Notes under the pieces: model-generated
Seen by the model: only the letters and a program-made list of their open reading frames with translations
Database searches by the model: none
What the model was told of the DNA's origin: nothing
Shown here: piece after piece, positions 12,234 to 43,155 of the stretch
Layout of the letters: each line of letters begins with the position of its first letter
How positions within the stretch are numbered: the first letter of the stretch is position 1
NCBI GenBank assembly: GCA_019096195.1
Contig: JAGTXK010000154.1
Location: 1 to 58,536, forward strand
Direction: 5' to 3'
Source of the DNA: Boletus sp. NGJ
Lineage: Eukaryota; Basidiomycota; Agaricomycetes; Boletales; Boletaceae
DNA length: 58,536 bases
Translations under genes and position numbers: made by a program

Positions 12234-13729
12234 CTATTTGTTATAATCATGGATAGCATGCACACACTCCATCAAGAAACCGATATGCAAACCCAACTCT
12301 CCACGACCTTTCCCCAAAGCCTGTACTCTCCTCAGATGAAACTCTACCACAGCGACACATTCCCTATGCTTCTTCACCATGTCTATGGCTGACTCAAGGA
12401 GACACATGGCTTCCATCAATTCTGAGTCCCCTTGTGCGATGTTGAGAATGTATTGCATGTGAAAGTCGAGCAGTCGACTAGAACATGAAGCATGGTTCTG
12501 TCTTGGTATCCCAAGACCTTGCTTGAACAACTTTTGTATGTCCTCTGTGGGCTGGAAAGGATTATATCAGCCTTGAATTCATGTTATGATTCATTCCACT
12601 CCACCCACCTCATCAAGGACAACCAAGTCAGGATCTGCAAGACTTTTTTGCCTTTTAACCCCTTCATCTTTCAGTGCATTTAGCATGGCATTGGCCACGA
12701 GCTGGCAGTCAGCTTGGACCCATAAATCGAAAGTCGATTCCCATTTCTTTTGTTGTTTGAAGTCAAGGTTGAGATAGATGACACAGGGGGAAGGGTCTGA
12801 AGGCCGTCTGCTTTGCCGAACCTGTCGGGCGAAGTCTCGAATCATTCTTTGAGTTCCTAAGACATGCATGCCCGTTCCGACCACGAGCAAGACATCTATA
12901 ATCGGAGCTCCGGACAGGTCCTGTGTCTGGAATTCGGCGATATGCTGAGCATCAGGATGTTCCTGGCCATACAATATCACATCCGGAACCATCATTGGAA
13001 CTGACTGCACCCGCTTTCCTGCCATGCTGCGGGATTCTTGTTTTCCTATGGCAAGTGCCACAAGAGGGAAATATTCCTTGCATGAGTCCATCTTGGTGGA
13101 CTTTAATACCCTCTACTGCATGACAAGACTGGCAGTAGAGGTACTGAAGAGTTCCATGTAGGGGAATGCATCTGAGGGGTTGCAGAACATTTTGAGGACA
13201 TGTCCGATGATAAGTCGACAGGCCTGCTTTGAGTTCCAGTCCATCGATGTTCTGTGTATATACCCGTACCAATTTTCCACAATCATCCAGAGTTTTAAGA
13301 AGTTTATGGAATAAGGTAGGCTGGCTGTCCTCCGACTTTTGTGCAAGACTGGCATAAAATCGGCCGAACAAAGGTCTCTGAGTCTGATCCTGTATAAAAT
13401 AAGATGAGAGGGTTGGTAGGACCCAGAATCTTAGAACTGTGGTACTTGCAGTGATCATTGAAATTTGGAACATGTCCTTTAGTTTCCTTTGTGCTAGCTC
13501 TGGAAATCCTGGAATCCTTTGTTTGCTTCTAAAATCAGGTATTCCAGCTGCAACAGAAATCCCTGCACCTATACCAGAATTATGATCAGAATAGATACTT
13601 GTAGTTTTACTAAGTTAGGGTTGAATGCTTGCCACATATGACAACAATGCCTTTTGCATTCAATATGACTGACAGCAGAGACTGCATGTGAACAACCTCT
13701 GTTGAGAAAGAGCACTTTGTAATCAGCAT
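12234..13729 (-). CDS. Sirtuin (Sir2 family, Hst3/Hst4-like) with C-terminal helical domain
   Basis: NAD-dependent protein deacylase. In order: GIVVICGAGIS (NAD-binding loop, about residues 27-37), IPDFRSKQ, VYTQNIDGLE, PLHGTLQYLYC with the presumed catalytic His, zinc pairs CQSC and CGTC, VILYGQEHP, and the Rossmann strand VLLVVGTGM. The start is an ATG at 13729. A GC-AG intron (13569-13632) splits the first glycine of the GAG motif. A 57-nt intron (12552-12608) joins the catalytic domain to a helical domain of about 80 residues (RLLDFHMQYILNI to the stop at 12234) shared with three other proteins here. After the zinc pairs the frame shifts by one base at a T4 run (13041-13044). Removing one base gives a continuous 457-residue protein, so this is either a lesion or an assembly error. 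Hst3/4 relatives deacetylate histone H3, a nuclear role. Confidence 0.8.
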
Positions 13730-13953
13730 GGCTCTGGAATAAGAGAAAACAGTATGGTGTTTGTTTGGGGAGAAGGACGGAATGGATAGGAAAAAAGAGG
13801 GTGTAGATGCTAATGTGGCAAAGGGGATTACATAAGAGATGCTTGATTTATTGTGATGGGTGAAAGTAAACATAAAGAAAACTCCTCTCAACTGCCTGAG
13901 ATGGATCAAAATATAGTATGTTTATATGTGTATGCTGTGAGGTTAGGTTAATG
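13730..13953. other. Spacer upstream of the sirtuin gene
   Basis: Upstream of the sirtuin ATG. An additional 5' exon of the sirtuin gene could lie here, since an open frame continues to 13909, but it lacks recognisable domain sequence. GGTTAGGTTA precedes the next repeat. Confidence 0.3.
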
Positions 13954-14374
13954 TGACAATATCCATTCATAACCAGTTCTGAACCTTCCGGGTTCAGCAC
14001 TTCCGATCCCGGAAGTGTCATTCCGAAACCCCAGCCCGGAACCAGTGGTTCCAAAGGTACCTCTGAAATCTTCCCATGCCCTTCCACAGGTTCCAAGGCG
14101 AGAATCTCAGAACTGTTCCCAATATTTTCCCTCACCCATTCCAAACTAGGAATGAGCTTTTATTACACTTAGACTTTTATCATTCCCTAGCTGACACTTA
14201 CAACATATGTTACATATCTCCTTCAGATCCATTTACACTGCCTCACACATAACATAATACAAGTATACCTCCGCCCATATATAGTCTTCGGTCACTGACA
14301 CACCTCTGTCATTTTCTCCCTCCTAGGCAGCGGCTGAGTTCTGGGTAATCTCTGCCCACTTATATTTTTTGTCA
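13954..14374 (+). mobile_element. TGACA element, full copy, TAATG target duplication
   Basis: 421-bp intronless copy starting TGACAATATCC and ending TTTTTTGTCA. It is flanked by TAATG on both sides (13949-13953 and 14375-14379). It is nearly identical, in inverted orientation, to the copy at 22022-22445, and the similarity extends about 60 bp beyond its right end to about 14440. Confidence 0.85.
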
Positions 14375-14431
14375 TAATGTCACCTGTAACATTTTAGGTA
14401 CAGGCCTGAAAATAAGGTTATGAGAGTGTAG

Positions 14432-17551: not shown

Positions 17552-17790
17552 CCTGCTGTCATTCAATCTCTCCCCTTTTCAGCCAAATCCCCCTCGCTTC
17601 CCTCTAACCTCCTCCAAGGAGTCGGCGAATGCCGTAAATACGGGTCAAGCTCAGCTAGGCTTACTAATTTGGCATATTAGCTGCGAAAGTCACAAATTTG
17701 CAGTCACAAACTTGCCTTTTTTGTGATGGACTTCACTTCCCACTGGAATTTAGTATCGCGTGGTCCAATGAGACTTCCCCGTTTTGCGAC

Positions 17791-20443
17791 ATGCCACTCC
17801 AGCCCAAGTTCCTTAGTGAAACACCTAGAAAGGTGAAAACATCATCGATCCCTCGCCAAGTCAAGTGCTTCGAGGTCCCAAAGCTAAAGGAGAGTTTTCA
17901 TTCAGAGCTTCTTGACAGCATTTTCGACGAGGGTGCTCTCCCGGATACCTATCATGGAGACATCATCGCTGACTGCTGGTTTCCTGACAGCATTTTACCA
18001 CTAGTCCCTGACGCCAATTTACTTGCTGTGCTAACAGGACCGGATGGACGGCTACTTTATGACTCGTTGACAAAACAGTGGGCCCCTCAGTATTTACCAC
18101 CGATACTGCACAGAGCAAAGTCCTGGGAGCGACAGAGACTTGCTCCAGGACTTGAGGAGAAGGACCTCAGCGCGTTCATGACGATAATCATGGAAGCATT
18201 GGTCCGTCACCGCAATTCTACTCTACGAGAGTCAGCTCCGTCGTCTCTCAGCAACCCCACCTCCGTGTCTTTGAATACGAATACAGATGCCACTGTGTCC
18301 TCCCCCATCGCCACTACTCCCCCTGCCATTTCCATTCTTCGAGAGTCGGCGCCATCGTTTCCCATCAGCCTCCCCTCCATATCTTTGAATCCAGATAGTG
18401 TTGCATCTTCCCCTGCCATTGCTACTTCCCCTGCGAGTTCAATTCTTCGACAGTCGGCGTCTCCAATAAGCCCCCCCTCCGTATCCTTGGATACATATGC
18501 AACTGTGTCCTCCCCTGACACCTCTATTCCACGAGAGTCGGTGCTCTCATCTCCAATCAGCCTCCCTGACACATCTCCTCACCACATACCCGCATCTTCA
18601 TCCATGTCGGGGACTGCTCGCCGACACCCGACAGAAACCTTTCCAAGGCTCTGGTCATCAGCGGCTACACAACCTCTTTTAGGTGCCTTCCATCTCAAAC
18701 CCGATAGCATATTGATACGACAACCTGCCGACGGAACTGCTCAGAAACCGGACTGGACAGATGTCCTCATGACCGCAGAGTTAACCTCTAGACAACAAAC
18801 GCTGAACCTCACCTCTCAAATCGAATGCAGAGCGCTAGCGATGTTTGATGCACAGCCCGATAGGGCGTTTACCTATTCGCTCTCCTTTCACGGTGGGCAA
18901 TACCGCCTCTATATGTATGATCGCGCTGGAGGCGTGTATTCTCGCTCATACGACTTACATGAATCCCCTGTCCCCTTCCTTCGCATCCTTTGTGCGGCCA
19001 CATTCGCCCCCACCTCATACTTGGGGGTGGACGATACATTTGACTGTCGACTCCACCCTGTCATTACCATAGATGGCAAGCAATACTTCATCATCGCTAG
19101 ATGTTTCTCCAGCAGCATCATTCGGGGCCGCGCCACCACTGTCTGGTTCGTGTCTGACTCAGTTCCGCCCCGCAGCAATCCAAAAAACATTTTTGTCATC
19201 AAAGATTCGTGGGTAAATGTTGAGCGCCAATTACAGGAAGAGGATATCCTCAATTTATTGAAAGATGTCGATTGCGTTCCAAAAGTGGAGAAGGCATGGA
19301 CTGTCAAGCGGGACGGTCAGGATGACTCAACCTCGCTTCGCCGCCCTACGGCCTTTATGTCACACTTCAAGCAGAAGTGTGATCACCGTGCCCGTCGACG
19401 CCTCGTTCTCACTCCTGCCGGCCGTCCAATCACGCATGCTGCGAACCCCCTCGAAGTCGTGACTTGTCTACTCGACCTTGTTATCGGTAATGATGTTTAT
19501 CTCGTGACCGGATCGTTCCTGAACAATAAGCAGCACACAGGGATATATGGGCGCGTGGAATCTTGCATCGAGATATCAGTATCAACAATTCGATGATGTA
19601 CGAAGAGGAACTCCCAGATGGTAGTTTCAGGATTCGGGGTTTACTTATCGACTTCGATTATGCAATCAGAGTGGATGAGTTGAACCGCACAGCCGGACCT
19701 GGAGATCGTACAGTGAGTCCGGTCGGCTTGTATGTTCCTTGGGATATTTTTGATGCAGTTTTTAGGGGACACTCCCATTCATGGCTATCGAACACCTCCG
19801 CACCGACGATGATGAACCTCTCCGTCACACTGTGGCTCACGACCTTGAGTCGTTCGTCTACCTCTTGTGTTGGATCGTCACCTTCTACGCTGGCCCGCAT
19901 AGCCAGCTCCGCGATGACTTTCCCAAAAAACTGGCTATGGAAGGGTGGTATGAAGGCAATGATCTGGCCATGTTCGCAAACAACAAAGAGGGTTGTATGT
20001 CTTCTGGCAGTCACCTTCAAGATATTACTGGATACTATGAGAGTCTTCGTGCATGTGTCAAGGTTCTTTCGAGCCTCGTTCACGAACAGCAACAGTATGT
20101 TCAACGCCATTCACACAACGCGTTGACCGCGCAAGCCGATTACCTCACCGGCTCTAAACGCCCCCTTATCGAGGACAGCAAATCAGACCCCCTCAATCAC
20201 AATGCGCTAATCTCTATTCTCTTTCGCACATGCCAACTCCTACACAAGGGAAGAATTCCGGATACAATAGACTACGAACCTCGAGCGTTTTGCTGCACTA
20301 AGGATCACCGCACACCTCTATTAAGTGACTACGTAGGAGCTTCAATTGGTATTTGTCATATTTTGGACTTAGGGGGTGGCCGCTTGTTAAAGAAGAAACG
20401 CATCATGCATCGTAAACGTGGCGTTCTCCAGACTGCATCATAA
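17791..20443 (+). CDS. FunK1-type fungal protein kinase
   Basis: Three exons: 17791-19486, 19534-19712 and 19766-20443, giving 850 residues. An in-frame extension to 17698 exists, but the ATG at 17791 (MPLQPKFLSE) is the first Met. The N-terminal part has DTYHGDIIADCWFP (about 50-64). A Ser/Pro-rich spacer (about 141-275) contains four imperfect repeats with S-x-LRES/SxPRES cores. The kinase core follows, with catalytic loop ILHRDISINN (H577-R-D) and metal-binding IDFDYA (D605-F-D). After the third exon begins comes GTLPFMAIEHL, the FunK1-style P+1/APE region, and DLESFVYLLCW. Introns of 47 and 53 nt have GT/AG ends and restore the frame exactly. FunK1 kinases are expanded in Agaricomycetes; substrates are largely unknown. 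The gene looks intact. It lies between the near-identical inverted repeat copies at 13.95 and 22.02 kb. Confidence 0.9.
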
Positions 20444-20536
20444 TTATATTGCTGCCTTCGTACGGTCTTGATGTCTTACATATCTAACTTTGTGTACTCT
20501 AAGATCTTCAAATTTGTACTTTTCATGAACAAAAAG

Positions 20537-20937
20537 TGATGATATTCTTCCATAATCAAGTCCCGAACCATTCCGGGTTTAGTACTTCCGATCCCGGAAG
20601 CATCATCCCGGAACCAGCGGTTCCAAAGGTGCCTCCAAGCTTTTCCCACGCCATTCCACAGGTTCCGAGACTAGAATTTCTGATATTTTCCCTCGCCCAT
20701 TCCAAGTTCGGAATGAGCTTTTATCATACTTAGACTTTTATCATTTCCTAGCCAGCACTTACATGTTATATATTTCCTTTGGATCTGTTTACACTACATC
20801 ACACATAACAGAATCATAATATGAGTATACCTCCGCCCATATATAGTCTTCAGTCACTGACACACACCTCAGTCATTTTCGACCTCCTAGGGCGGCTTAG
20901 TTCTGGGAAATCCCTGGGCATTCATAGTTTTTTGTCA
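20537..20937 (+). mobile_element. TGACA element, intronless
   Basis: Starts TGATGATATTCTTCC (a mutated left end) and ends TTTTTTGTCA. It carries the usual order of blocks and lacks the 47-bp segment (GGCTTAG/TTCTGGG at 20900/20901). Flanks (AAAAAG and TGTTA) give no target duplication. Confidence 0.75.
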
Positions 20938-21239
20938 TGTTATGAGCCCTGTTTGTGCAAACTGAATGATAACACTCAGTGATGACTCCAATCCACCTCG
21001 CACATTGCTCAGTGCATCTTAGTTCATCACTAACTCAGTTTCATATATCCCACCATGTATCCCCCAGACACCTTTCATCCAGAAGAAACCCTCACTGGAC
21101 CAAACAATTGCAAATGTAAGTCAAAGCTGACAGCTTGGGTTCCATGAGCTGAATCACCCTGCTATTGAGGACGGTGCTGAAGACATAGAATCGCTCATAA
21201 GTATGGAAAAGGTAAGTAAAGCCTGAGAAATGAAAAAAT
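20938..21239. other. Intergenic
   Basis: No gene is recognised in this stretch between two repeat copies. Confidence 0.35.
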
Positions 21240-21966: not shown

Positions 21967-22021
21967 TACACTCTCATAACCTTATTTCAGGTCTGTACCT
22001 AAAATGTTACAGGTGACATTA

Positions 22022-22445
22022 TGACAAAAAATATAAGTGGGCAGAGATTACCCAGAACTCAGCCGCTGCCTAGGAGGGAGAAAATGACAGAGGTGTGTGT
22101 CAGTGACCGAAGACTATATATGGGCGGAGGTATACTTGTATTATGTTATGTGTGAGGCAGTGTAAATGGATCTGAAGGAGATATGTAACATATGTTGTAA
22201 GTGTCAGCTAGGGAATGATAAAAGTCTAAGTGTAATAAAAGCTCATTCCTAGTTTGGAATGGGTGAGGGAAAATATTGGGAACAGTTCTGAGATTCTCGC
22301 CTTGGAACCTGTGGAAGGGCATGGGAAGATTTCAGAGGTACCTTTGGAACCACTGGTTCCGGGCTGGGGTTTCGGAATGACACTTCCGGGATCGGAAGTG
22401 CTGAACCCGGAATGGTTCGGAACCGATTATGGATGAATATCGTCA
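22022..22445 (-). mobile_element. TGACA element, inverted near-twin of the 13.95-kb copy
   Basis: Reverse copy starting TGACAAAAAATATAAG, preceded by CATTA. It is nearly identical to 13954-14374 including about 60 bp of outside flank (21962-22021). The last 40 bp differ from the twin and end ATCGTCA with no matching target duplication, suggesting that the right end came from another copy by recombination or conversion. Confidence 0.85.
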
Positions 22446-22676: not shown

Positions 22677-25046
22677 CTACATGGTGCCACTCATGTCAGG
22701 AAATACAGGGTCTGGAAGCCCATTGGGCGAGACCGGAATCGTGATCTCTTGGTCACCGCCAGAGTAGTATGGACCCTGACTGCATACAAACTTCCGTGCA
22801 CCGTCTACCGTCATATTCATGAATTTGAGGAGGGCCTTGGCACAGTCAGCTGCAAAGGCCATCTCTCCTCGCTCCTCGTTGGCGAGCTCCGAGGTATCCT
22901 TAGGGTTGGGTCGATGTTTTGTGTGCTTGGCGCGGTCCAATATTATGAGAATTAGGCTGATGAGACTTCTTTTGCGGATAATTCCTGTGATGTGTAATTA
23001 ATTAGGGTTGCTGAGCGAATCGAGGGATGATTTACTTGGTTCGCATCGGTACCTGAGGGCAATGAGCATCCGACACAAGGTGCGGATGAAACCAGGGCGT
23101 TCGTCGTTCGTGAGGCTGTTGGGGTCGTCGAGTGTACTCATGGAGAGCACTGCGCGGGTAAGATGCATAGTTTGGTAGTTATAGAAATAACCACCGCTGA
23201 ATATCGATGGTACCGGGGTATACACACAGTGCATCACCCCAGGAGGTTGAAACCTGTTCGGTTTGTGAGCTGATTGCAACGAAAAAAAAGAGGGTCTCAC
23301 ATGACGTCCCCTTCTTCGAGGCAGATGGTGACTACATCTGAACCCGGGTAAGTTCCGTCCTCGGAAAGGGTCGTTGAGGTTCGCAACACTGAAGATAGCT
23401 CCTCCAAGTCGGCGGGACAACGATCACGCTTTGGGCGCATGATGGCCCATATCTTCGCACCTGCATTTCCGACCACGTAAGTTCCCATTCCGCAACAGTC
23501 GTGGTGCGGAAACGTGACGAATCCGGAGTGGGTGATCAGTCTCCAACCCTGCGAAGTCCAAGTCGACGACCGGATCACATGGGGCCCCCTCTCCTCCACT
23601 TTAAGAATCGGTTCCTTCTTCTTCCTCGGTGCTTTGGTGAACCGGACATGCATAGTATGGTTCCACGCAATGCTTGAGTGCAGGAGAGGCGTAGCCCAAG
23701 TTGGAGTAGACGGGTTCAAGTCTTTCCCGTCCAAGAAATTTCCGCATGTCGTAGTGTCTTGCACAAGATCAATGAACCGTTGCAATGACGTTGTTTTGTG
23801 AATCTCTTGTGATTCCGGGAGATCCTGGTCGGCCGCGTACAAGACCCCGTCCACCCATTGACACCGTTGTCCGAGGTCTCCAAACTGTAAACCCATCGAA
23901 CCCTTGGAAAATCGAAGTCGCATTCCTGATGTACATCCCCTCACCACCACCGTGGTCGATTCTGCCAATTTTTCTTCTATTTCCTTGATCATCTTCTCCC
24001 ATGCTAGTTCAACCCCTTCCGCATCTTCATCCACGCCATTTCTGAGTAATGGATCGAGTTCCATTTCCACTGCCAACTCCCCCTTTCGGAACGAGTCTCC
24101 TTCGGGACCACACCGTTCGGAACCGGAACCCTCTAGGGAACACCGTCTTGCGAGCTCTCGCACTACTCTTCCTTCCCTATCCTTTTCAACATCTTTTAAC
24201 ACTATATAATACATTAAAACTCTTGTACTCACTGTTTTATATCCCTTTCCTGCGAACGGCATGTAAGTCTCAAATCCTGCGTCCCACCTTAGCCTTTCCG
24301 AGCCTTCCGGGAACCCGACAGAAGACTGTATGAAGCGTGACTGACCTTGCATGTAAGCCCTATATCCATTCTTTATCCAAGAGATACATACCATATCCTT
24401 CACCTCTTTTTCCACTATCCCCCTTGGTCCTCCTGCCGTCACTCGTTGCCTTTCTGTCACAAAGATCAGCCCACCATACAGAGCATAGATACATATCCTT
24501 GGAACATACTATATCTTGCGTCCTCATCCCCATATCCATTTCCTGTTTTTCGTTCTGTAATAGCATGAGCTAGGATCAGTTTCAATTTGCCCCGAAAAGA
24601 ATACCTGACATACTTGTCCGATGTGATCCCTCACCATCTGCAGTACAGGAGCTTGGAGCGACCCTCATTACCTTCATCTTTCTCCCGTCGAATGATTCCC
24701 GAAAGCGCAACAGAAGATCCATAGTGTTACTGAAACCGCATGGGTGTCTCCCTTTCTTCCAGAATGGTAGACCCTTCTGGCTAAAGGAGACTGTGCATGA
24801 GTTTGCGTTCGGATGCGAAACCAGGCCCTCCAAGTCTGCCACTTCCACCCTCCTCCACCCGCTCACGTGATAGACCTCGAACGTAGCCCTTGAGTAATCG
24901 TAAAGGAAGTCGCCGGGCTCAGGAGTCGGTGGCCATCTACCGTTGTTCGAAACGTATAGCCTTGCCGGGACGTCGTCCACATCGGGAATGTCAACGAAAT
25001 AGACGATTCCACTGTCTTGAACAATGTCTTTCAAAAAGCATTCCAT
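22677..25046 (-). CDS. JmjC-domain protein, cassette A
   Basis: ATG at 25046 (MECFLKDIV). An N-terminal domain (PDVDDVPARLY, ATFEVYHVSGWRRVEVADLE) is followed by a linker exon, VGFPEGSE, and the JmjC core. The core has GFVTFPHHDCCG (HxD iron ligands), VVGNAGAKIWAIMRP (Lys expected to contact 2-oxoglutarate), EEGDVM, an intron, then FQPPGVMHCVYTPVPS with the distal His and FSGGYFYNY. A helical tail ends PDPVFPDM at 22677. All three metal ligands and the Lys are present, so Fe(II)/2-oxoglutarate hydroxylase or histone demethylase chemistry is plausible; the substrate is unknown. A GT-AG intron near 24350 (GTATGTATCTC...AAGGTCAG) sits at the same place as in the paralog at 43538. Faces the same way as the two genes upstream of it. 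Intact by eye. Confidence 0.85.
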
Positions 25047-25794
25047 GTCCTCTGTTGTGAATGAAAAAAATCAAGAGTTGCGTAAATTGGATGGGTTGTA
25101 AGTGATGCGTGACGGGATTTTCGCGTCGTCACGAGTTTGCACTTCTAGTCACTCTGATTACGTCATCAGTCCCTCACCCCCTTGCTCCATGATCTATCAT
25201 TTTACAAACGATTGCAAGAAGTCTTCCATACCGTATCTTAATCACATGTGATCCCTGAGGTAATTATTCATGTAAGACATTACAACTACAACTACCCCAT
25301 TCTTCACCCAGAAACTTCCTGAGTGCTCCCATCACAAATTCTACCAAACATCAACACAAATGATCCCCTTTCCACTGAAACAGACTTCTTATTTGTTGGT
25401 TTCATTTTTATCAGGCTCAAAATGTCTCTTACAATCTAGTGAGTTATTCCTGTTCAGATCACTCCTGATATCCACTTCCCGGAATTCATTTTCCCAACTC
25501 TATTGGAATCTCGGATTCGTCGGAAGGGTAATAGACGAGTTTCAGTCTTCTCTTAGCTGAACATTTTTGCCTACTACATTTCTATAATCACTTTTAAACA
25601 ATATAAAATATTTTGAATTAGGACATAGACATATGCATATGCTCTTACCTCGCATTCCATATATCAATCAATCTTAATCTCTGTCTGCACTGTCTGCATT
25701 CTTGACAGTATCTAGTAAGGGCTATGTAATGGAAGGAACTGCATAATACTACAGTATATAAGATATAAGTAAATTATAGTTGACAGAGCACTGG
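25047..25794. other. Intergenic upstream of JmjC A
   Basis: No gene is recognised. Sequence is mixed, AT-rich after 25560; the start of a diverged TGACA-type repeat may be at about 25745 (ACTACAGTATATAAG resembles the intron-like 3' end in reverse). Confidence 0.4.
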
Positions 25795-26340: not shown

Positions 26341-27364
26341 CTACCTACGCAAGAAATCTATGCATGCCCTCAAAACCTCCAGTTGCTCCTCCAGCTGTGC
26401 ATCACCAATACTGAAAGTACCTACTCTTTGCATATGGAACTCTACCACTTTCAAACTTGCTCCGCCCCTCATTATTGCCATTGCTGATTCCAGCATATAG
26501 ATGGCATCTTGAAGTTCGGCATTTCCGGTGGCGAGGTTGAACATGTATTTTGTGTGGAACTTGGTAAGGGCATGGCAGTAAACGTCGAGATCAGGAAACG
26601 TCACAGAAACATCTGCTTGCTGATTCTGGATATCGTATGCGGGCTTCAAGAAACAATCCCATGGTCAGCCTAACCCTTTCAATGATACAGTGAGATGACT
26701 ATACCTGATCCGTCCGGGAGCAGGAAATTGGTAAACTATCGCAATGGCTAGGCCCTGACATGGTGGCCTAAATAAAAATTAAACATGAACCGGTTGAGAC
26801 TGAGTGAAGACGTTAATATTGAATTGTTTCACTTACATTTGGACTTGAATGTACCGGTGAAGGAAGCCTGGTCTCTGAATGAACTTCATGTATATCAGGA
26901 AATCTGACTTTGGGCTGAGAAGTCATCGGTGGATCTTCATCGCTGCCCTCATCACCGTCAGACCAGTCGGACTTCGCATCGGGATCGAATTCTGAGCAAA
27001 GATCCCATTCATTCAAGAACGCGTCATATCGCCGTTGTGCACCGTGGTAGTCTGACCACCTTTCGATGTAGTTTTGGTATCCGACCGGGGTGCGAATACG
27101 GAATCCTTCTTGATCTTCCCAACAGAAAACTCGCGCGCCCTTCCGTCCCGGAACCTTTCCCGGCGCGGCGTTCTTAATGCGTTGCTCGCGCGCTCGTCTT
27201 TCACTGGAGGACTCCTTCTGCATGGCCAACCTATTACGTTCCGACCTCCGAGAGAAGAAATCCTTGGTAGTTTCTCCATGAAGCTGGCCACTTCCCTTGA
27301 TGGGTAACGGAGCCTCAGGATGATAGCCAGCCGGAGTGCTGATTGAAGCGGAGGATGAGTTCAT
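26341..27364 (-). CDS. Basic/acidic protein with shared C-terminal helical domain
   Basis: ATG at 27364. Residues about 30-75 are strongly basic (FFSRRSERNRLAMQ, SERRAREQRIKN) and resemble a bZIP-style basic stretch or nuclear localisation signal without a clear leucine zipper. Next come FCWEDQEGF and GYQNYIERWSDYHGAQRR, then an acidic patch (SDWSDGDEGSDEDPP). A GTAAGT intron and a short exon (ATMSGPSHCD) lead to the last exon from about 26645 with the helical domain: KFHTKYMFNLATGNAEL, MLESAMAI, VVEFHMQRV, LRACIDFL. This domain is the same as at the end of the sirtuin and the two small proteins. Function unknown; nuclear location is suggested by the basic region. Same strand as the genes on both sides. 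Confidence 0.7.
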
Positions 27365-27689: not shown

Positions 27690-28488
27690 CTACAGCTGAT
27701 CTTTGTACTTAATACATTCATGTAGCATCTCGAAAGCTTCCGACACAGCCGCATCCTCAGGAACCATCTCCTTCACGCGTTTCAAATGCCACTGCACGAT
27801 TTTCATGCTTGCGCCAGCGTACGCTATCGTCAGGCTGTCTTGCAGAAAGAGGACTGCATTCGCCACTTCTGGGTGTGTCACGTCGAGGAGGTCCAATAAA
27901 TGCTTGACATGGAAATCAAGCAGGCGATATTGGTAGGGCGATGGCTTGAGCGGTTGCGATCGTTTCGGGCTTGGCTCCTCGACAATGCCCTCTCTAGGGT
28001 GTTTCCGTGTCTGTGGATTTTGCATGAAAAATAATCATAACTGTCTGAAGTGCTATTGAAACATTTTCTTACCGGCGGCACTCTTTCATGCTCCCTGCTT
28101 CCCTGTCCATCCTTGTCTATTACAACTTGCTCAGTGTACATCCAATCGACAAAGGGCGTGGGACTCACCTCTTTCAGAATGCTTCTTCTTCCACTCTTGC
28201 AGCCATTCTATCACCGCCTCTGCTCCCTCGACATAATTTGGCGGGGAATACTTGATGGAGCCCTCTGGAGGCATACGGGGCAGCGTGCGTCTAAGGCCTT
28301 CCCGCATGGTCTGTCCTCATTAGTACCAATATTCCTATACACGATCACAACATACATACCTTGAGATAGTCTCTGCCGACCTTGCTCAGAGCCGGCCCTT
28401 CATCGACCGTGAAGTTGGTGATGTCTGTGTCCAGACATTTCAGTTCTTCAGCGGTCAAGTCCATGGTGAAAGGAGGAGATATCGTCAT
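27690..28488 (-). CDS. Small protein with shared C-terminal helical domain, cassette A
   Basis: About 210 residues, four exons. Exon 1 (28488-28360, 43 residues) gives MTISPPFTMDLT and TNFTVDEGPALSKVGRDYLK. Exon 2 (28310-28169, 142 nt) gives TMREGLRRTLPRMPP and AVIEWLQEWKK. A short linker exon follows, then a final exon with PSPKRSQPLK and the helical domain RLLDFHVKHLLDL, LQDSLTIAYAG, IVQWHLKRVKEM, LHECIKYKD. The paralog at 42407 has the same domain order, the same exon-1 splice position after YLK and an exon 2 of exactly 142 nt. No enzyme motif. The basic PKR patch could be a nuclear signal. Function unknown; I infer a protein-protein interaction role for the helical domain. Confidence 0.8.
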
Positions 28489-31955: not shown

Positions 31956-33894
31956 CTACAACCAAACTCGAGGGCCACATCTAGGACAGCAGTAGTAAAC
32001 TAGAGTGACTCCACCAGGCCAGATATGCTTAAATGCTTTAATGTCAGTCCAGTCAGAAGGAAGGTAACCCATCATGATCTCAAATGACCGAATCTCCTGT
32101 ATGATGTTGACAATGCCACCATTTCCAATAAAACCATGTCTACCCCCTCGAGCAGCAGGAATCATGAGAAACTTGCGAAAACGGTAATTGGTAGGAGGGG
32201 GTTGTAGGCTGCGAATGACAGAGGAAGGGCGCTTTCTGATTCCACACCGTTGAAGACAATGGACATGATACCATTGTCTGCAAGACAGACAATGTCGTTC
32301 AGGGTTGGAGGGATTATAAAGAGGGTTTGGACAGTTTTCACAACCACAGCGGGAGCAGTTCTTTGGTGTTTTCTTTTTAGAAACTGACAAAGATGGTGTT
32401 CTGATGGATCAAACTCACCAACACCATGGAAGGATCAATCTCAATGTTCCAGCGACAAATGATTTTGGTTTGAGTTCGGAAAATTGAAGTAGGGAAATCC
32501 AAGGATCTGTCATCCAAACGGTGGACGCGTATTCTAGCTATAGACGAGGTCAATAATTTTAAAAGGGAAGAATATAAGGATGGATACCATGGATACAACG
32601 GAAGTCAAAGAAATAGATTTGGTTGGAGTCCACGATCTCATTTGGAAGCATGCAGTCAGCAACACTGTTGAGATCAGGTTAGTGAGCTGGAAAGGGGTAG
32701 TAGTATGGGAGTATGGAGTACTTTCCTGGAAACCAATAGTCTTGTTTCACTTCGAGTGAAAAAGCGTCTGGCCTTGACCCAGACAAACTTTAGGGAACTG
32801 AATAAGTAACAGATGGACTGCGAGAAAAGAGACCTACTTGCCTCCTTACCATCAGGGAGAGTTTCAATGTAGAATGCAAGCAGGGTAGCATACGATAAAC
32901 TCGTGGTTGAATTTTGTCCATCAGCAGTAGAAGAATGTAGGCTGACACTGCCAGTGATGAGAACAATATATGGGGGATTTTTAAATGATGTATGGAAGAA
33001 GAAAGTGGAAGGACACTTGCATATTACCTGTGTACAGGGTGAGTGATGTTGGACCATCCGGATGCTGAGGATTGGACACGTAAACATCTTTGTGACGACG
33101 AGTGAGTATATGAGCAGCATATGATAGAACAGGCTCACAATGAATAGCTTCAAGCCTCGGGAGTCCGGAAGGTATGTGCATTTGTGTAATTTTCAGAGCC
33201 TCCTGGCTACACTGTTGGTTGGAGTACACTGTCCGAAGTGTGGACATGACGGTTGAGAAAAGGTCAGTCAGCACCCAGAATTAGAAATATTAGTCACCGG
33301 GTACATACCGGAGCCCCAATCACTCTTGTAACTGACAAGTTATATGATCTACCAACCAGGTGAATCATTATGCATCACCAAAGAACACCTCTGCCTGATC
33401 CAGTGAGGAACAGTCACCTGTGTGATTGAAACTAAGAGGTCCGGAAGAATGACTGCATGGCTGACACAGTAGGTTCATATCCAGGCGTTTATGAAGAAAG
33501 GTTTTGAAAATAATTAAAAAGCATTTTACTCAAGGTCTCCAAGTCATGGTCCAGTGCCGAATGTAATCCAGCTCCCTTAGCACCAATTCTAACTTCATTT
33601 GTATCACCATTTCATCTTCCAGGAACCATTGGGCTGAGCCAACTCCCTGCAATGCAAGCTCCATCTGTGCTTCTTCAAACAATCCATGCCGCACTGTGTG
33701 GTAATATTGTAATAAGGCTGTCCCTTGACACATAATAGCGTCAGGAATTTGGATTTTTCAGGCCCATATATCTCAAAGAAAATTTCTGTTAGGATCCAAC
33801 CAGAACATAGACTCAGAACATTCAGAGGAAGGAATAATTTACATTGGAAGTACAGACCTCTTATATATGATTCCTGCATAGGTTTCAGATCCAA
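31956..33894 (-). CDS. BAH/PHD-like zinc-finger gene
   Basis: Multi-exon gene on the minus strand; the 5' limit is uncertain (33894 or about 33733). Exons I can follow: LLQYYHTVRHGLFEEAQMEL (33.7 kb), GLPRLEAIHCEPVLSYAAHI (33.1 kb), TSLSYATLLAFYIETLPDG (32.9 kb), FVWVKARRFFTRSETRL (32.76 kb), and the last exon at 32390-31956. The FVWVKARRFFTRSET stretch looks like the central strands of a BAH domain. The last exon has CSRCGCENCPN, HCLSCRQWYHVHC and a final CCPRCG, a PHD-type Cys4-His-Cys3 arrangement similar to the gene at 9.8-11.2 kb though diverged. A histone- or nucleosome-binding role is inferred. Exon joins were not resolved. Confidence 0.55.
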
Positions 33895-34560: not shown

Positions 34561-35208
34561 TGCCATTCCATTCCACTCATCCCCTCATGTGCTTCTGTTA
34601 ATATAAACTTGAATGAAATTGGTTGATCCAGTAAACTCTGACATACAATAGAATATCCCCCGGCTCAAGATAAGCACAAGTGCAAGGGATCAGCGAGGTG
34701 TGCTAACCAACAAAGCTATCTGTGTGGCTAAGCTTCATAAATGTGCAAAACAGAACCAGTATCATGGGTGGGATGGGGGTTAAACACGTACTGAAGAGAA
34801 AGGTCAAAGGCTATGCAAGAGGTTGGACGAGAGGAGGGCGGCGTTTTAATCTGAGCCTTTGGTAACCTTAGAACATCGGAAAGGTCGGAATCTCTAACTT
34901 TGGAACTCGCCTGCCTGCAATTGTCATTTGGTGGCCAGAAGTCAATGGTGATGAGTGGGAACTACCAGGGATAAGGACGGATGGTCTGGACACAGGATTA
35001 GCCTTCCTTCAGATTAAGATTTGATGAGGGTTATTCTTCATCCCTGAAGTCTGGAACACCTCGGTTACGATATTTATATTGCTTCGGAACAATTGAATTG
35101 AAATGCAAGTAACGTATGGGTCCAGATCTTCTTGCACAGTATGTAAAATTTCTTGCTTGAGTCTGAAAACGGGGCCTTACTTTCCACCGGCTTCTATCAT
35201 CCATCCCC
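34561..35208. other. Intergenic
   Basis: No gene is recognised upstream of the gene starting at 35209. AT-rich with a pyrimidine-rich stretch (CTTCTATCATCCATCCCC) directly before its ATG. Confidence 0.4.
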
Positions 35209-37051
35209 ATGTCTCCCAAAATAGTGACCGCTGCAAGTCGAATGCTTGCGCTGGCAAAGACACGTTCCATGGAGCCAGCCAACAGGAGACATAGGCCTAT
35301 AGAGTCTCTTAAAGCGGGACAGTCGAGTTCAACAACAGCGATTCAAAATGAAGAATATGAGTTTGCAAAGCATACACAGATGTCCTTGAAGGCCTCGGAG
35401 TGGCGGAAATGGAATAGGGAGAAGGACGTCAATACAGCGGTAAGCAAAGGATGGATAATACTTGATTGCTTCTATGTTCCATTTAATTTTGATTTCATTT
35501 GTTCATATAATGAGATCAGTCCGCTGAGAGTTGTTCTGCAGAGGTGCAGTGCATGCAATGACGACGGAGACATGGTGTTCTGTGAGGAAGACGGCTGCAA
35601 GTTGGCTTTCTGTTGTGACTGGATGGATGGAGAAGGGACTGTGTTAGGATGCCTGAGTCTACAGGAGGTGAAGAATCTGGAAATGTCGAGGGAAAAATTC
35701 ATTTGCCCATCATGCTCGACCAGAAAAAAAATACCATTCAAGGTGAGAGAAGTTTATTTAGAGCACATGGGCGGGTCTTCATCTTACACGGGACTTCCGC
35801 ATTAGCTAACATACCGTGGAAATCAAAGCCGTCTTTTCCATGCTCAGAGTATGGAACCTTTGGCATGGATATCGATTGTTTTGGAAGACCTGCAGCAGTT
35901 CCCACTCCAAACACAACTGAAGGCCTCACTGGAGAGTATGTATGGAGTACTCTGGGATGAACTAGTAAGAGATAAAGCCTCGTCTTACATCCAGTCTGGT
36001 TTTGATTTTTTTCTTCTTTCGTGTCATTTCTGTCCTTTGAAGGTATGCTTTAATCAGGTCATTCTTGGTACAGGGGGACCGCACACTAAGAGGCAGAAAT
36101 CTCCAAAGGAGAAAGATGTTGCGGTGTTGATCACAATAGAAAGCCATAGCTTGGTGGAGACCGGGGAAGTGATATGTGGAAGAAACATCAGCACTTCGGA
36201 AGTCAAAGGTGAACTGTTATCCAAGGTATGAAATTCCGATGGCTCCGGTGGTTCCGAAATACTGAAGGAAGGTCTCGAGGTGATTGCTCGGTACTTTTCG
36301 GAGGAATTACAGGAATATGTCAAGTTGTCAAGAAGCCCTCTAAAAGGGCTTATAGCATTGATTTGTGGATCGACTCTGAAAACCAAGGAAAGTAGAGAGG
36401 ACATGGAGAGTTTGATGCGAAGGTGATCTATGACACTCAGCTGTCGGAGCTTCTGTACTGACTACTTACTTAGATTGAACTTGACATTCATCATCGGGTT
36501 TCCCGCGACCTTCGTGAATCCAACTATGATTTCAGACACCCTCAATAGCTTTTGTCTGGCATTGTACTGCAAGAACATGTCTTTGAACGAGGCATTTCTA
36601 GAAGTATTTGGAGGGAAGCGGGAGCTCCTCTCGCGTTGTCCTGTGGTTCTCATGGAACGTAATCCAAGCACTGAGGTAAGCAGAATGAGATATATTGATG
36701 AAGTGAATAATCGGGATAAATTTGGAAATGTTATAGGTCATTTCCAGTAAGATGTTGGTGTATGGTGCCATGAGCCACAATCCATGGGGTGTTGCAAAAC
36801 CAGATTGTCCAAAGTGTAAGACGAACATGAGCGTGCAAGCAAGAATAAGGGGGGGTACGGGAGTCAAGGTTTCTTGGACATGTGTGTGCGGAATGGTTAG
36901 CATTAATTGTTCCAGAATGCCATCCTGCGTGCGGTGCGTACCTGTTAATTGGTTGCGGGACTTTTATTTCGTAGACTATCCAGTTCCGGAATCATTGTAT
37001 GAGGTAACATGGAGAGAGAAGAAGGTTTCTGGGATGAAGGTCGATGGATAA
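35209..37051 (+). CDS. PHD-like zinc-finger protein of unknown family
   Basis: ATG at 35209 (MSPKIVTAASRML), first exon to 35440 with donor GTAAGC. The second exon holds a zinc finger resembling a PHD: RCSACNDDGDMVFC, GCKLAFC, then GC and FICPSCSTRK. Later exons give SMEPLAWISIVLEDL (35.85 kb), PHTKRQKSPKEKDVAVLITIE (36.1 kb), EGLEVIARYFSEELQEYVKL (36.3 kb), LTFIIGFPATFVNP (36.5 kb), and SHNPWGVAKPDCPKC with a following CVCG pair, another likely zinc site. Introns are 45-80 nt with GT/AG ends. The C-terminal part is a domain I do not recognise. Convergent with the dioxygenase gene ending at 37436. A role in reading chromatin is suggested by the finger only. Confidence 0.6.
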
Positions 37052-37224
37052 TAAGGATGTATCAGCGCTCATTCCATAAATTCATGCTTTTCTTATAATG
37101 TCCCAAAGTTCCTACTTCTTGTATTCCTCGTGTGTGACTAAGGGCAGAGTAAGTTCTGTACCATTGTCAGGATCCCGTCACAATTCTGGGAGCAAATCAG
37201 AGGTTCGATGACCAAGTCCGGATT

Positions 37225-37420
37225 CATTTAGTTATATCACTTGCTAGCCCGGAAGTGTCATCCCGCGACCGGAACTAGTGGTTCTGAAGACACTCCCGGA
37301 ACTTTCCCGGAATGTCCCGAGGACATTCCGAAATCGGAATCAGCTTTTATCACACTCGGACTTCTCAACATTTCTTAGCCAATACTTACAACACATATTA
37401 CATACTTCCTTTGGAATAAC
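37225..37420 (+). mobile_element. TGACA element fragment
   Basis: Forward fragment with CCCGGAAGTGTCATCCCG, AACTAGTGGTTC, CGGAATCAGCTTTTATCACAC and the TTACAACACATATTACATAC block. Both ends are missing. It separates the two convergent genes. Confidence 0.65.
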
Positions 37421-37435
37421 AAATGATGCATACTA

Positions 37436-40187
37436 CTATAGCTCTGCACCCCAATGCTCACATAAAGTCTTCCAGCTCCACCGTGCTTGCATATACTTCC
37501 TTGCCATGTCCACGGTCCTGCTCGGAATGGTAATTCCGATACCTTGTGAGAGATGATTTCCTGTTTTCACTGTAGAAGCCCGAGGGGCCACAGTTCCATG
37601 AAGGTGTTCTCCTTTGAACCACCTTGTAGTACATATGAGTATGGATAACATACTCATGACTTGAAAGATGACCACTCACCAGGCACAATTAGCCTTAGTT
37701 TCCAAAACCTTTCCCCAGTGGGACAAACAAAAGTTAAACTCATCCTCATGGCATTTCTCCTTGAACAGTTGATATGATATTGTCCATGCTGCATCCTTGT
37801 CCATGTGCTGAGGTGCTATGTAGTTCCAGCAATGATAACCTGTGACTCCGTATTGGCCGAGCACATTCACCTCCCGTCCGAGGTCCTCCATTTCATGAAT
37901 CACTGATGAAGCATGTGGATGCAGCTTTGACAGGATACACTCAATGTCCTGTCATATCATGGTGATCATGAGGAGTGAATCACATAAATAAATTTTATTA
38001 AAATTGTCCCCCAACACGAGTGATAATCGAGACTGACCAATGCATGATTGAAAAGGGTGTGGACATCCTCCTGTGTTATGACTGTTGTCGCAGGATAAGG
38101 GGAATATCCATCTCCAGCTCGTCCCCCAGAAGGCTGGCGTGACCCTATGGGGCGCATCTCACCGTGATTCCAGTCCAAGAAGGCTTTCCGCCGCTTCAAC
38201 TTGGTGGTCAAATTCTTTAGCTTTTTTTGGTTTATCGCCAGTCGCTCAATTTCCTCGCCATCGAGCAACCTGAAAACCACCCCAGATACCTGCAGGAATT
38301 CTTAACCCTTGTGGGAGCATACTCAGAGTAAGGCTCAGCACTCACCTCCTCTCCGGTACGGGGGTCGACCAAGTGTACAGCGAACTGTCCACAGAGATCA
38401 TATATCTCCTTGTTGAACTTTATGGGTTCCATGTCTAAGTATGTCAATGGAACACTCTTTTCTCTCCTTCCCTCCATTTCATTTGCAGACATCTTGTCGG
38501 AGATACATCAGACTTTCCAACCTGCTGAGATAACATGAACCAACCGACATACCTTAGGGTTCATAGCATCTCCCTCTTCAGGGATTATCATATGGTTCTT
38601 GAGAACATAATCTAATCCACTCTCTTGGACTTGCAGGTACTGGATGCATTTATGGGAGTCGTCCAAATGCATGCAAGTCTTACACTCCCCATTGGAAGGA
38701 TCCCGGTTCCGGTTCCGGTTCCGATGAGCTTTGACCTTCCAGTTCTTCCGCGCGTTTCTCAGCATTTTGCTTAAGCTCAGAATATCCTTAATTGTGGGTG
38801 ATAGGTTCCACGTTGACCACACATTTTCATCCAGCCTACATATCGCACTATACATTCTCTTGACATCCCCTGGTTCAAACTTTGAAGAACTTTTTTCTGC
38901 ATCAGACGGAGGAGAAGAGAATGAAATGCTCACATCCATATCCTTTGTCTGTTCAACAGACCATATAAGCCAGTCGAAACATGCCGCGATGAAATTGTCC
39001 TCTGAGGACAGGAAAAATATCGAGTGTGGCTTAACTGCCATCGGAATCATGTTCCGGTCGGAAATCAGTTCCAGCAGCTTTCGTGGGTTGATCCTCATCT
39101 GGCTTGTCCTGGTGGTCTGGTTTATCAGCTCTTCTATCTCTTTCAATATCGTTTTGGTATCCTTCATAGAAAACCCCTGGCTCAAATTAGCCAAAGAAAG
39201 CAACAACGATTCCCTCCACTGGTACTTCCTGAAGCTACTTTGCATAAACTCCGAGTGGTGATTGAAGTCCATTGACTGCTTGGAGACCCAGAGGATCATC
39301 TTTGCCAGGCCTGAAGTCTGAACAGAAATAGCAGCTTATCAGCGATGAAATACAGGAAATTGACAAAAAGAAATAATGACAAGTGAAATCGGCCTTTGAC
39401 CCACATGAATGAATGGTTGTAAAACCTCAATATATCCCTTCCGCTTTCCTACTTCTCTCATTTGACGTAGGATCTGAATGGCAGCCTTTTCTGTATCCTA
39501 TATGCAGGATCATATTACCATATAAATTCAGTTTGACACCTAACCCACCTCCCATGGTTGCTGTAGGAAGAACCGCTCCAAGCCCTTCATCCATCCTGAG
39601 ACCAGTCCTTCCGGATCTTTAGACATTCTTGCAAACCATTCATGCCCATTTCTTGAACTTAGATTCTCCTCCTCTTGTTCACTGTCAGACATATGATCAC
39701 TGGAACCCATCTCATATGCGCTCTCCTTTGCTGTGTGCTATCATCAACCACATTTGTTATTCACTTCAACTCTGATCAAGCAAGACCAGCCACTTACACC
39801 CAATTCCATCTGAAACTGCTCCAGATCGAGCTTGCCATCTCTATCTGTCTCCGGTGCAAGGTTCAACATCTCCAGCCAGAGGGTCTGGCATATGAGCAGG
39901 GCCCGCTCATCTATGCTAATAGCCTGCCACACCACACCATGATCTTCCAGGAATTTCTCAGCCAAGGTGACCTATAATTCTGGTAAACCAATCTATTCAC
40001 AATTCCTGCCACATCTTCCCTGATATCTTACCGCGGCAATGTCGAGACTGAACAGGTGTGAAACCTTATTCTCCCACTCCCTGACTGCCTCTGGTGCTTC
40101 CGACGGAAAGAGTGTGCGCATCCTTATAGCTATGTACCAATCATTGAAACAGAAATCGTCGAATGTCATGAGTGCAGATTTCTTCAT
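37436..40187 (-). CDS. Probable Fe(II)/2-oxoglutarate dioxygenase
   Basis: Probable ATG at 40187 (MKKSALMTFDDF). Exons follow with LICQTLWLEMLNLAPE, RFFLQQPWE, a long exon at about 39260-38550 (SLANLSQGFSMKDTKTIL, NRNRNRDPSNGECKTCMHLD), PIKFNKEIYDLCGQFAVHLVD, and RPIGSRQPSGG. The final exons carry the best clue: GYHCWNYIAPQHMDKDAAW (a candidate HxD pair), EFNFCLSHWGKVLETKANCAW, an intron, then WFKGEHLHGTVAPR with a distal His, and GITIPSRT with a possible 2-oxoglutarate-binding Arg. The HxD...HGT order fits a double-stranded beta-helix hydroxylase. Whether it belongs to the TET/JBP nucleic-acid oxidases known in mushrooms or to another branch cannot be decided by eye. It lies next to the Zn-cluster gene and on the same strand. 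Confidence 0.55.
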
Positions 40188-40825
40188 GTTCACAAGTGAA
40201 ATGAGGTCAATCGGATAAGAATTTGGCGGACCTCAAAAGTTTTTCATCGATTTCACAAGATCTACACTCCGCCGGGATTGACCCTTCCGTTTCCGTTGTT
40301 TCTGTTTCTATCAACCTCGTTTCCTCGCGCCGAAGATCTTCTGGTTCCGCACCCAGAGTCGATCGGAACAATGGTTGCTGCTACATAATATGATAGTTTT
40401 CTGCGTCAATCACTCCATTCTACTCGTACGCTATGGCTAACTGTATCTCGATCGTAACCACTCACGAATTATACGTACCCCCGACATCATACCGTCCTCA
40501 CCCCATGGGTAGGCACTGGCTCAAGATAGGGCCTCTTATCTTCCACGAGGTATAGGTAGTCAAGTTCCATGTTTGTGTTGAGAGTATCATGTCACAAATT
40601 TTGTGAAGAATCCGGGCGGAACGTCGGAACATCTCGGGAAGCAAGATTCCTGAATCAGAGGGCCCCGACAAAATCTTCACCTTCTGAAAATGAATGGTGT
40701 AAAAACACATCAAAGTTCCCAACAGCTGGGATACCCAATCACCTCATTCTTACATAACAGACAAACTCGAACTCAAATGCATCAGATCCATTTCAAGTGC
40801 AAGGACATGAGGATAAGGGGAAGTG
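40188..40825. other. Intergenic spacer
   Basis: No gene is recognised in this 638-bp stretch. It contains TTCCGTTTCCGTTGTTTC-type pyrimidine runs near the dioxygenase 5' end. Confidence 0.4.
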
Positions 40826-42224
40826 CTACAATTGAGGCTTGGCCACCTTTGCTTTCAAAGCTCTCACCTGAAGCTCCAGATTGGCAATTCTTGTGACAAG
40901 GTGCTTCTTCTCCTCGTTGTCCACAGTGCTCTTCTGTTCCAGGTCCACAATGCGGTCACTCATCCCACAGATTAGCTCCCTCAGTTCGTTGAGTTTGTCC
41001 TGCGGAGGTTCATCTTTGGATGCCAATTTTCCTCGTGGAGGGCGGATGGAAAACTTGCCTGTGTTCTTTATCAGTGAATGAAAAACAAAGCAGAATCGTG
41101 GCAAAACTCACCGGCGATTATGCAGCGGATTTTGGCAGAAGCGCACGGGTCACATGCCCGTTTCTCAACCACCGTACCTGAGGCTTCAGATGTCATGGGC
41201 CACACACATTTGATGCGGCGAGCATTGCATGAATCACATGTCTGTGAGTAATACTTCCATTTCAAGGCTCACGCGCTAACGGAACTCATCTCATGACACA
41301 CCTTGGGGGCTTCCGACACTTCCGGTCGGACCGGTGCTTCTGCCTTGGCTTTGCCTTTCATGCTCGAGCCCACAGAGGGGCCAGCCTCATTTTCATCTTC
41401 GTTGTCGCTCTTGACGAACTCGGTCGACTTTACTTTCCTTTTTTTCTTTGCTGGCGGCGCCTTGTCCTCCTGTCTTGCCACCTCTCTCTTGCGCGCCGTA
41501 CGTCGGACCATTCTAGTGCTTGACACATTGGAAATGTTGGCGGATACTTCAGAATTGGGCCCTGTTATAGATTACTCTTGATTTAAGTGCCTGGAATCTT
41601 CCCTTAATGCAGGCTCACCACTTTTGTTGCCTGCAGCAAATTCTCCAGGTGCAGATAACAGCTGGTTTGATGACCCTTTTTTGACCTCAGAAGGTGTTGG
41701 AGATATTATCCTAATATTCACTACATTCAAGTTGTCAATTCCAAGTGAGATTTAGATTGTTTCTGAGGCTGAGAGGACCAACTCACCAGATGGTGGTGGC
41801 ACTTTCCACCAAACATCAACTCCCTTGAGCTCAGGAAGTGCATCTGCTGGTACATCCTCATACTGTGGTCCCATGATGGAGGGATCGTCTGCATGCACCT
41901 CATTAAAGCAGAGAGTCTTTATATTCATGCCACCACTGTAGTGGCGGAGCAACATGGCATCCAGACTTCCCAGAAGCCTTGGGTGCGGAGAGCTTACACT
42001 GGCTTTGGGAAGGTGGGCCTAAAACAAAAGGACATAGAAATATAATACTTTCGGAACAAAAAGATTGGGTTGCTTACCACTTCGGCCTCTAGATTGTCCC
42101 GCATCCAGACGACCCAGGCTTCCTTCGGCCCAACGATATGAGGGATGAACTCGAGGGCAGCATGTACTCGGGCCGTAGCAAGGATCACGCTTTTGTCGAC
42201 CTTCGAGTTGTGGAACGGATTCAT
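40826..42224 (-). CDS. Zn2Cys6-like cluster and coiled-coil protein, copy A
   Basis: ATG at 42224 (MNPFHNSKVDK). An N-terminal conserved region (VHAALEFIPHIVGPKEAWVVWMRDN) continues in exon 2 with HPRLLGSLDAMLLRHYSGGM and LPELKGVDVWWKVPPPS. A linker rich in Lys, Glu and Ser (PPAKKKRKVKS, a likely nuclear signal) follows. The zinc exon has CDSCNARRIKCVWP and ACDPCASAKIRC, spacing C-x2-C-x6-C-(about 17)-C-x2-C-x6-C. The last exon has PPRGKLASKDEPPQD and a leucine-rich coiled coil (ELRELICGMSDRIVDLEQK, HLVTRIANLELQVRALKAK). The cluster resembles fungal binuclear Zn2Cys6 DNA-binding domains but has a longer middle linker and sits near the C-terminus. Likely a DNA-binding or dimerising regulator. 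Divergent from the small-protein gene at 42407; paralog at 46525 with the same order. Confidence 0.75.
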
Positions 42225-42406
42225 GCCGACGAGTGAGTGCGAGCTTTAGCCTGAGAGAAGCGCAAGTGCAAGGTTGAATGGGACTTTACGAAATGCATTA
42301 CAAACGCGGCCAGTCACGGTCACGAATGTCACGCGTCACTTTGCGCAAAAGCTCAACAGTCAACTCCGAGTCTGACATCCTTCAACCGCATCCAGATCTG
42401 TTCAAA
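42225..42406. promoter_or_regulatory. Short bidirectional promoter, Zn-cluster A / small protein B
   Basis: Only 182 bp separate the two divergent start codons (42224 minus, 42407 plus), so control elements are probably shared. No specific motif was identified. Confidence 0.5.
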
Positions 42407-43155
42407 ATGTCTCCCTTTTCGAGGAACCTGAGCTCCGATGCCCTGAAAGCTCTTGAATGCGATATTATGGAATTCACTGTTGAGGAAGGTGGGACACTGA
42501 GCAAGCCGTCATCAGAATATCTCAAGGTATGCTGAATTTCTATAGCCGCATCATGCTCAATTTCCACAGATTACCCGGGAAGCAATTAAGCGCACTTTGA
42601 CGCGAATGCCTGTTGGCGGTTCTGTCAGCTTTGTTTTTCCAGAAAGTGGTAAAGGTATGGAGTCAGCATTGCAGTGGCTCGAAGGCTGGAAGGACCGAAC
42701 CGGAAGAAATGGTGAGTAATCATTTAGTTTCTCTGTTCTAACTTTGCTGACTGCATTACAACCTCCAGCCAACCAGCAGGAGGTAAGGAGAGTATGATAA
42801 AAGGCACGATAAATATTGATTGATTTTTATCTAGGACTCGCTGCCACGCAAACGTGCCCGAGATGGAACGCTCCCGGAACCAGTGGCCAAACGCTCCAAA
42901 GCTGCGACAGACCTTCGGCTTCTTCATTTTCATGTCACTTTATTGCTTGACTTGCTGCAGGGGAATTCCAACGTCGAGGATGCTGTCCTCCTCCTGCAGG
43001 ACAGTTTGACTATTGTAAACGCCGGAGCAAAATCAAGAATAGCTCTATGGCATCTTAATCGTGTGAAGTGTATGGTCCCGGTCCCGGACAATGAGGAGAT
43101 ATCGGACGCGGTGGATATGCTCTCGGAATGTATTTCTTACATGGATAAGCTGTAG
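42407..43155 (+). CDS. Small protein with shared C-terminal helical domain, cassette B
   Basis: Paralog of the gene at 27690-28488. ATG at 42407; exon 1 (42407-42526, 40 residues) ends GGTLSKPSSEYLK, exon 2 (42570-42711, 142 nt) gives ITREAIKRTLTRMPVGG and ALQWLEGWKD. Further exons lead to PRKRARDGTLPEPVAKRSK, a basic patch, and the helical domain LRLLHFHVTLLLDL, LLQDSLTIVNAG, IALWHLNRVKCM, LSECISYMDKL ending at 43155. Exon sizes and splice points match its paralog, but the protein has diverged strongly, so the duplication is old and both copies have stayed open. An in-frame stretch upstream (from 42278) is probably untranslated leader. Followed on the same strand by JmjC B, as in cassette A. 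Confidence 0.8.

Follow-up and report, generated by a model that had tools for sequence, protein, structure and literature searches.

The window analysed here is the whole of a 58,536-nucleotide (nt) contig (C30, GenBank JAGTXK010000154.1) from the genome of Boletus sp. NGJ (32.8 Mb in 141 contigs). It holds four genes whose products end in a similar C-terminal stretch, referred to in the following as the tail: a sirtuin gene (SirA), a gene for a basic/acidic protein (B1), and two genes for small proteins (S1 and S2; Table 1). Related genes on a second contig, C98, were labelled S3, B2 and SirB, and a copy of S1 lies on a third, C10. All gene models were read by eye from the sequence, without transcripts. 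An initial annotation had proposed that one helical domain with a shared sequence pattern ends the four window proteins. The pattern was present in all four C-termini: each contains FH, either LESA or LQDS, one of the variants VEFHLRRV, VEFHMQRV, VQWHLKRV and ALWHLNRV, and a final CV or CI, and 10 columns are invariant in an alignment of the window tails (A1). The front parts differ, as that annotation had said. Its tail intervals 12234-12530 and 42883-43155 lie within the last exons of our models, whereas those given as 26341-26649 and 27690-28025 run 24 and 15 nt, respectively, into introns.

Seven copies of the domain were compared in pairs, each local score being set against 1000 shuffles. 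Twenty of the 21 pairs scored above all shuffles, and the score of the last pair, B2 and SirB, was reached by 4 of 1000. When the genome was searched with the S1 domain, the other three window copies were recovered with expectation values (E) of 2.3e-18, 3.2e-6 and 0.0016. Chance similarity is ruled out by the shuffles and these E-values, and on such comparisons the four window C-termini are one homologous domain. The tails are also under coding selection, with a ratio of nonsynonymous to synonymous change (dN/dS) of 0.193 between S1 and S2. Genome searches with five single-protein queries, one of them the protein P0006 described below, were run at E up to 10 and give counts that are lower bounds. 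At that sensitivity eight genes carry the domain, confined to C30 (S1, S2, B1, SirA), C98 (S3, B2, SirB) and C10 (the copy of S1); no one query of the five recovered all eight. A profile scan of open reading frames (ORFs) of at least 25 amino acids (aa) covered the window, the full length of C98 and 61 kb of C10; with seven of the eight known copies among the profile rows, it returned the same eight and added none. Among the C98 paralogues the signature is less strict: S3 has WH instead of FH, and SirB lacks the final C-(I/V).

In our models, one terminal exon after a phase-0 intron encodes the domain. The protein parts before it are of three kinds: a sirtuin, a basic/acidic protein, and a small protein whose basic stretches resemble nuclear localisation signals. 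The last intron has phase 0 in S1, S2, S3 and B1; reading of the sequence gave the same phase for SirA, SirB and B2. The S1, S2 and S3 genes have four exons each with intron phases 0, 1 and 0 alike, and B1 has three exons with phases 0 and 0. Ahead of the tail in S1, S2 and S3 are the basic stretches, which by eye look like nuclear localisation signals. The B front occurs in the genome on C30 and C98 only, and the B1 and B2 fronts match at 54%. The basic protein B2 (C98:50355-50732 and C98:49606-50028) has three helical hairpins in its tail, compared with two in the other tails.

No Pfam family matched any of the four window tails above its cut-off, the best score being 15.5 bits against 25.5 (RsbU_N, in S2), and NCBIfam matched none of the four; the signature thus has no named family in these collections, as the initial annotation had supposed. 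Among the 13 members of a larger alignment (A3), one matched a WD40 model in Pfam at E 3.1e-4. Neither sequence searches nor fold searches of the PDB found a specific match for the tail, and literature searches, in which coverage of subscription journals was thin, turned up no paper about such a domain. The helical character that had been proposed is seen in two AlphaFold tail models of modest confidence, each with four helices (pLDDT 79.2 and 82.2, pTM 0.67 for both). The tail resembles TPR-like helical-hairpin repeats in being built from a pair of similar hairpins, each about 38 residues long, and in a weak PDB profile match to the designed TPR-like protein 4y6w (E 0.021, and 0.05 in a second search), but no Pfam TPR family was found for 8 or 13 tail members at E up to 10, in scans where HMMER filters discard most matches above E 0.1. 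TPR membership by Pfam profile was rejected at that sensitivity. The two halves of the tail are alike in five of seven copies, where 0 to 6 of 1000 shuffles reached the half-versus-half score; the score of S2 was reached by 72 and that of S3 by 359. For small four-helix adaptor domains such as MIT and PAH, fold scores lay within the common helical-bundle range and no sequence match to the tail was seen; the fold matches are those of generic bundles only.

The fold matches of the tail models are generic and designed helical bundles. Such matches, the small helical nature of the domain and the several diverged copies kept side by side would suit a self-association module, whose helices pair with other tails so that homo- or hetero-oligomers form without a further partner. 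We consider this unlikely; generic bundle matches are uninformative on oligomers, and the fold is known here from single-chain models.

A search for relatives with S1 alone, at E up to 10, gave one protein. The profile search of public proteins, a check that the initial annotation had suggested, did find relatives: nine proteins, including that S1 relative, the SirA tail itself and a near-identical B1 tail. The relatives include P0001 of Boletus reticuloceps, P0003 of Boletus edulis and P0009 of Gyrodon lividus, as well as the short P0004, P0005, P0006 and P0008; Boletus reticuloceps and Gyrodon lividus are both Boletales. This search sees only sequences that share exact words within a length range, and absence elsewhere is not implied; the S2 row of its alignment was seven residues short of the later S2 model. 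We describe the tail as a genuine C-terminal domain of Boletales, hitherto uncatalogued; it spans about 80 residues and has four helices in two similar hairpins.

The front of SirA is assigned as a sirtuin by its Pfam match to Sir2 (PF02146; window 12952-13614, minus strand; E 8.5e-21, 75.1 bits against a cut-off of 24), and its deacetylase activity is putative; the downstream piece 12591-13112 alone scored 14.4 bits, under that cut-off. The sirtuin part has two GC-AG introns and contains GAGIS, PDFRS, TQNID and paired cysteines, which we take to be sirtuin motifs. For P0010, a public relative, PDB searches gave sirtuin chains (best E 4.3e-8). When 13 genome matches were grouped by hand, seven Sir2 loci were counted; the tail stands at two, SirA and SirB, and was not found at the other five by the five single-protein genome searches. 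The nearest other sirtuin in the genome, on C58, is 33% identical. SirA and SirB are like basidiomycete sirtuins of the Sir2/Hst family in the Sir2 Pfam match and the PDB sirtuin match of P0010, but differ in carrying a helical tail and in standing far from the other sirtuins of the genome. According to Arras et al. (2017, PMC5399365), homology between yeast and Cryptococcus sirtuins is almost confined to the sirtuin domain, Sir2/Hst1 excepted. Our literature searches turned up no paper about a sirtuin with such a tail.

The 57-nt intron that had been claimed to precede the SirA tail is present, and its predicted removal joins the tail in the local frame; counted from the gene start it is in phase 1, since an upstream frameshift enters the count. 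The tail exons of SirA and SirB have 46.5% aa identity over 101 codons, with 110 changes in 303 sites and a dN/dS of 0.345. Of 5000 neutral simulations, 169 kept the frame open, 20 had a pN/pS as low as that observed, and 1 did both. Between the two genes, this exon has changed in the manner of coding sequence read in that frame. Its first in-frame ATG is at residue 32 in SirA and 30 in SirB, inside helix 1, and the tail therefore needs a splice from upstream; we infer that it is spliced onto the sirtuin in vivo.

Some points weigh against this reading. Within exon 3, near 13040, the SirA gene (13729-12234) has a frameshift; the initial annotation, whose Sir2 enzyme and tail splice both fit, had left this unmentioned. 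SirB is frameshifted near C98:52374, a different place, and the public relatives P0010 and P0012 are open across the sites of the two frameshifts. The frame loss of both sirtuins may be decay or assembly error. P0012, from Butyriboletus roseoflavus (Boletaceae), is the only annotated sirtuin among the relatives found; where it matches the C98 sirtuin locus it is 94-99% identical, which probably places the sequenced bolete in or close to that species. It ends in ...ETEQVL, before the domain exon, at a point corresponding on C98 to the start of the intron preceding the tail exon. No tail was seen in any of P0010-P0015, the six sirtuin relatives; five of these are lgn or ena entries without an annotation name, whose sequences may stop at exon ends. 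Both observations would be explained if the domain exon were transcribed separately and the sirtuin ended as annotated in B. roseoflavus. This is very unlikely in our view: the position of the first ATG inside the domain, the fit of frame and splice site in both genes and the coding selection in that frame all argue for fusion, and only 57 nt lie between the SirA sirtuin frame and the tail exon.

Three of the four window members, S1, B1 and S2, lie beside JmjC-like genes, which bears out another claim of the initial annotation; S1 is about 380 bp from one, and about 9 kb separate the sirtuin from the other. A join of two ORF pieces, covering part of the gene, matched Pfam JmjC_2 with 20.8 bits (E 2.9e-4; cut-off 22 bits), the best PDB chain is a KDM7 homologue (E 0.0012), and an HHD..H residue set was read by eye. 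Because the profile score is below the cut-off and the residues were read by eye, the genes are labelled JmjC-like, a weak call. They are like JmjC histone demethylases of the KDM7/PHF8 type in matching such chains weakly; the difference is that they are neighbours of the tailed genes and have no tail themselves, by the tail searches and the profile scan. The genome has two JmjC-like ORFs on C30, one on C98, one split in two pieces on C10 and a weaker relative on C97, and all three contigs with the domain thus also hold this family. Copies related to the zinc-cluster-like gene lie at about 46.5-47.8 kb (plus strand) in the window and twice on C98.

Table 1. Features of the C30 window (positions in nt of the window).
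Feature	Position	Strand	Remarks
SirA last exon	12234-12551	-	linker and shared domain; counterpart C98:51655-51957
SirA last intron	12552-12608	-	57 nt, GTGGGT..CAG, predicted, phase 0 in local frame
SirA sirtuin part	12609-13729	-	exons 13729-13633, 13568-13450, 13389-12609; by-eye model
B1 gene	26341-27364	-	basic then acidic front; domain in last exon 26625-26341; by-eye model
S2 gene	27690-28464	-	small protein, 4 exons; domain in last exon 28010-27690; by-eye model
S1 gene	42407-43155	+	small protein, 4 exons including a 14-nt exon; domain in last exon 42835-43155; by-eye model
JmjC-like gene beside B1 and S2	22683-25070	-	approximate ends
JmjC-like gene beside S1	43535-45966	+	approximate ends
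Zinc-cluster-like gene	40829-42285	-	Zn_clus E 0.021, 15.4 bits, under 21-bit cut-off
Gene of unknown function	37439-40232	-	C98 counterpart at about 41.0-43.8 kb
Dispersed repeats	876-1264, 11450-11890, 13953-14375, 20527-20959	both	
Further dispersed repeats	22058-22445, 48092-48789, 53344-53608 and others	both	

C98 repeats the gene set in a different order: S, B, a sirtuin with tail, and the JmjC-like, zinc-cluster-like and 37.4-40.2 kb genes, with matches to C30 mostly at about 45-75% aa identity. The JmjC-like copies have dS values of 1.9-2.7, near saturation, and the gene set has therefore kept together over a long time. C98 appears to be an old, diverged counterpart of the C30 cluster, the divergence and shuffled order fitting old paralogues or very old haplotypes. 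Such a second cluster, tailed sirtuin included, strengthens the idea put forward by the initial annotation. C10:247650-264882 is 93-96% identical in long stretches to window 36278-48203 and to pieces of 19-23 kb; its S1 copy has a TAG inside the tail and its JmjC-like copy holds a transposase ORF (259395-260237), Tc1/mariner-like by eye. We read C10 as a recent, partly broken segmental copy rather than an allele, because the long matches span only about 17 kb of 61 kb.

Dispersed repeats, the longest of roughly 400 bases, recur in both orientations in the window, and also on C10 and partly on C98. A fragment like the first exon of the JmjC-like genes lies at 56065-56486 (minus strand), and near the contig end (57367-58466) are repeats containing GGTTAGGG, 85-98% identical to pieces of C98:93571-94254. 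A 1161-residue ORF at 5930-9415 (plus strand) has no Pfam family; it starts with QNGTDCGP, which presumably recalls Ulp1-type cysteine proteases. A fungal protein kinase (Pkinase_fungal) lies in several frames at 17668-20443 (plus strand), and cysteine-rich ORFs that look PHD-like by eye lie at 10794-11201, 31956-32408 and 35167-35805, only the first with a PHD match, a weak one (E 0.024).

An unrooted tree was built from 14 tails with 84 columns kept, its resolution limited by the short sequences. S1, S2, S3, P0001, P0003 and B2 fell on one side, SirA, SirB, P0004, P0005, P0006, P0008 and P0009 on the other, and B1 between them. B2, entered as a joined row of its first helix and last three helices, paired with S3 (support 99/98), and its first hairpins as an extra row gave the same placement. 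Constraining the B1 and B2 tails together was rejected (p-AU 0.00012; a post hoc constraint, chosen after the pairwise scores), and grouping the five S tails without B2 gave a p-AU of 0.032. S3 and B2 adjoin on one strand, as do S2 and B1. Since the B2 tail groups with S3 and not B1, while the B fronts match each other and S3 and B2 are adjacent, replacement of a terminal exon fits: an exchange between S3 and B2 has probably taken place, in which one tail exon was replaced by that of its neighbour.

This exchange, the many dispersed repeats, the 93-96% identical segmental copy with its broken genes and the sirtuin frames broken in both assembled copies would also suit a terminal exon that merely spreads by duplication or gene conversion in a repeat-rich, unstable region, the fusions being tolerated with no shared role. 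That account is quite unlikely, given the coding selection on the tails (SirA/SirB and S1/S2) and their retention in other Boletales.

We favour, with moderate confidence, the reading of the tail as a docking module for a cluster of chromatin-related genes. The shared tail would bind a common partner, or another tail, and this binding would gather the small proteins and the sirtuin at a single site, where the JmjC-like and zinc-cluster-like proteins of the cluster would probably join them. The sirtuin front, the JmjC-like neighbours and the nuclear-localisation-like stretches are most simply read as pointing to docking in the nucleus, and nuclear location, binding and a chromatin function are accordingly proposed from sequence features. 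The interpretation given by the initial annotation is partly supported: homology of the four helical tails, their varied fronts, the lack of a named family, a splice onto the sirtuin that fits frame and signals, and proximity to JmjC-like genes agree with the data, while docking itself, chromatin action and a JmjC-like partner would be its proposed parts. Besides the points raised above for the sirtuins, two observations count against the docking reading: the tail searches returned no copy of the domain for the contig of the C97 relative of the JmjC-like genes (35% over 85 residues), and, with C10 a recent copy and C98 an old one, the clustering does not amount to three independent events.

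A wider version of the docking reading, which we put forward tentatively and regard as rather doubtful, is that of a heritable module of Boletales: a swappable terminal exon would give a sirtuin and several small nuclear proteins one docking tail, placing an NAD-dependent deacetylase and an iron/2-oxoglutarate JmjC-like oxygenase, encoded next to each other, in one chromatin complex, and tail exchange between neighbours would rewire its membership. If true, these results would mean a lineage-specific adaptor domain, a sirtuin architecture on which our literature searches turned up no paper, and tail exchange between neighbouring mushroom genes, and the tails would be ready bait for finding the role of the cluster in boletes.

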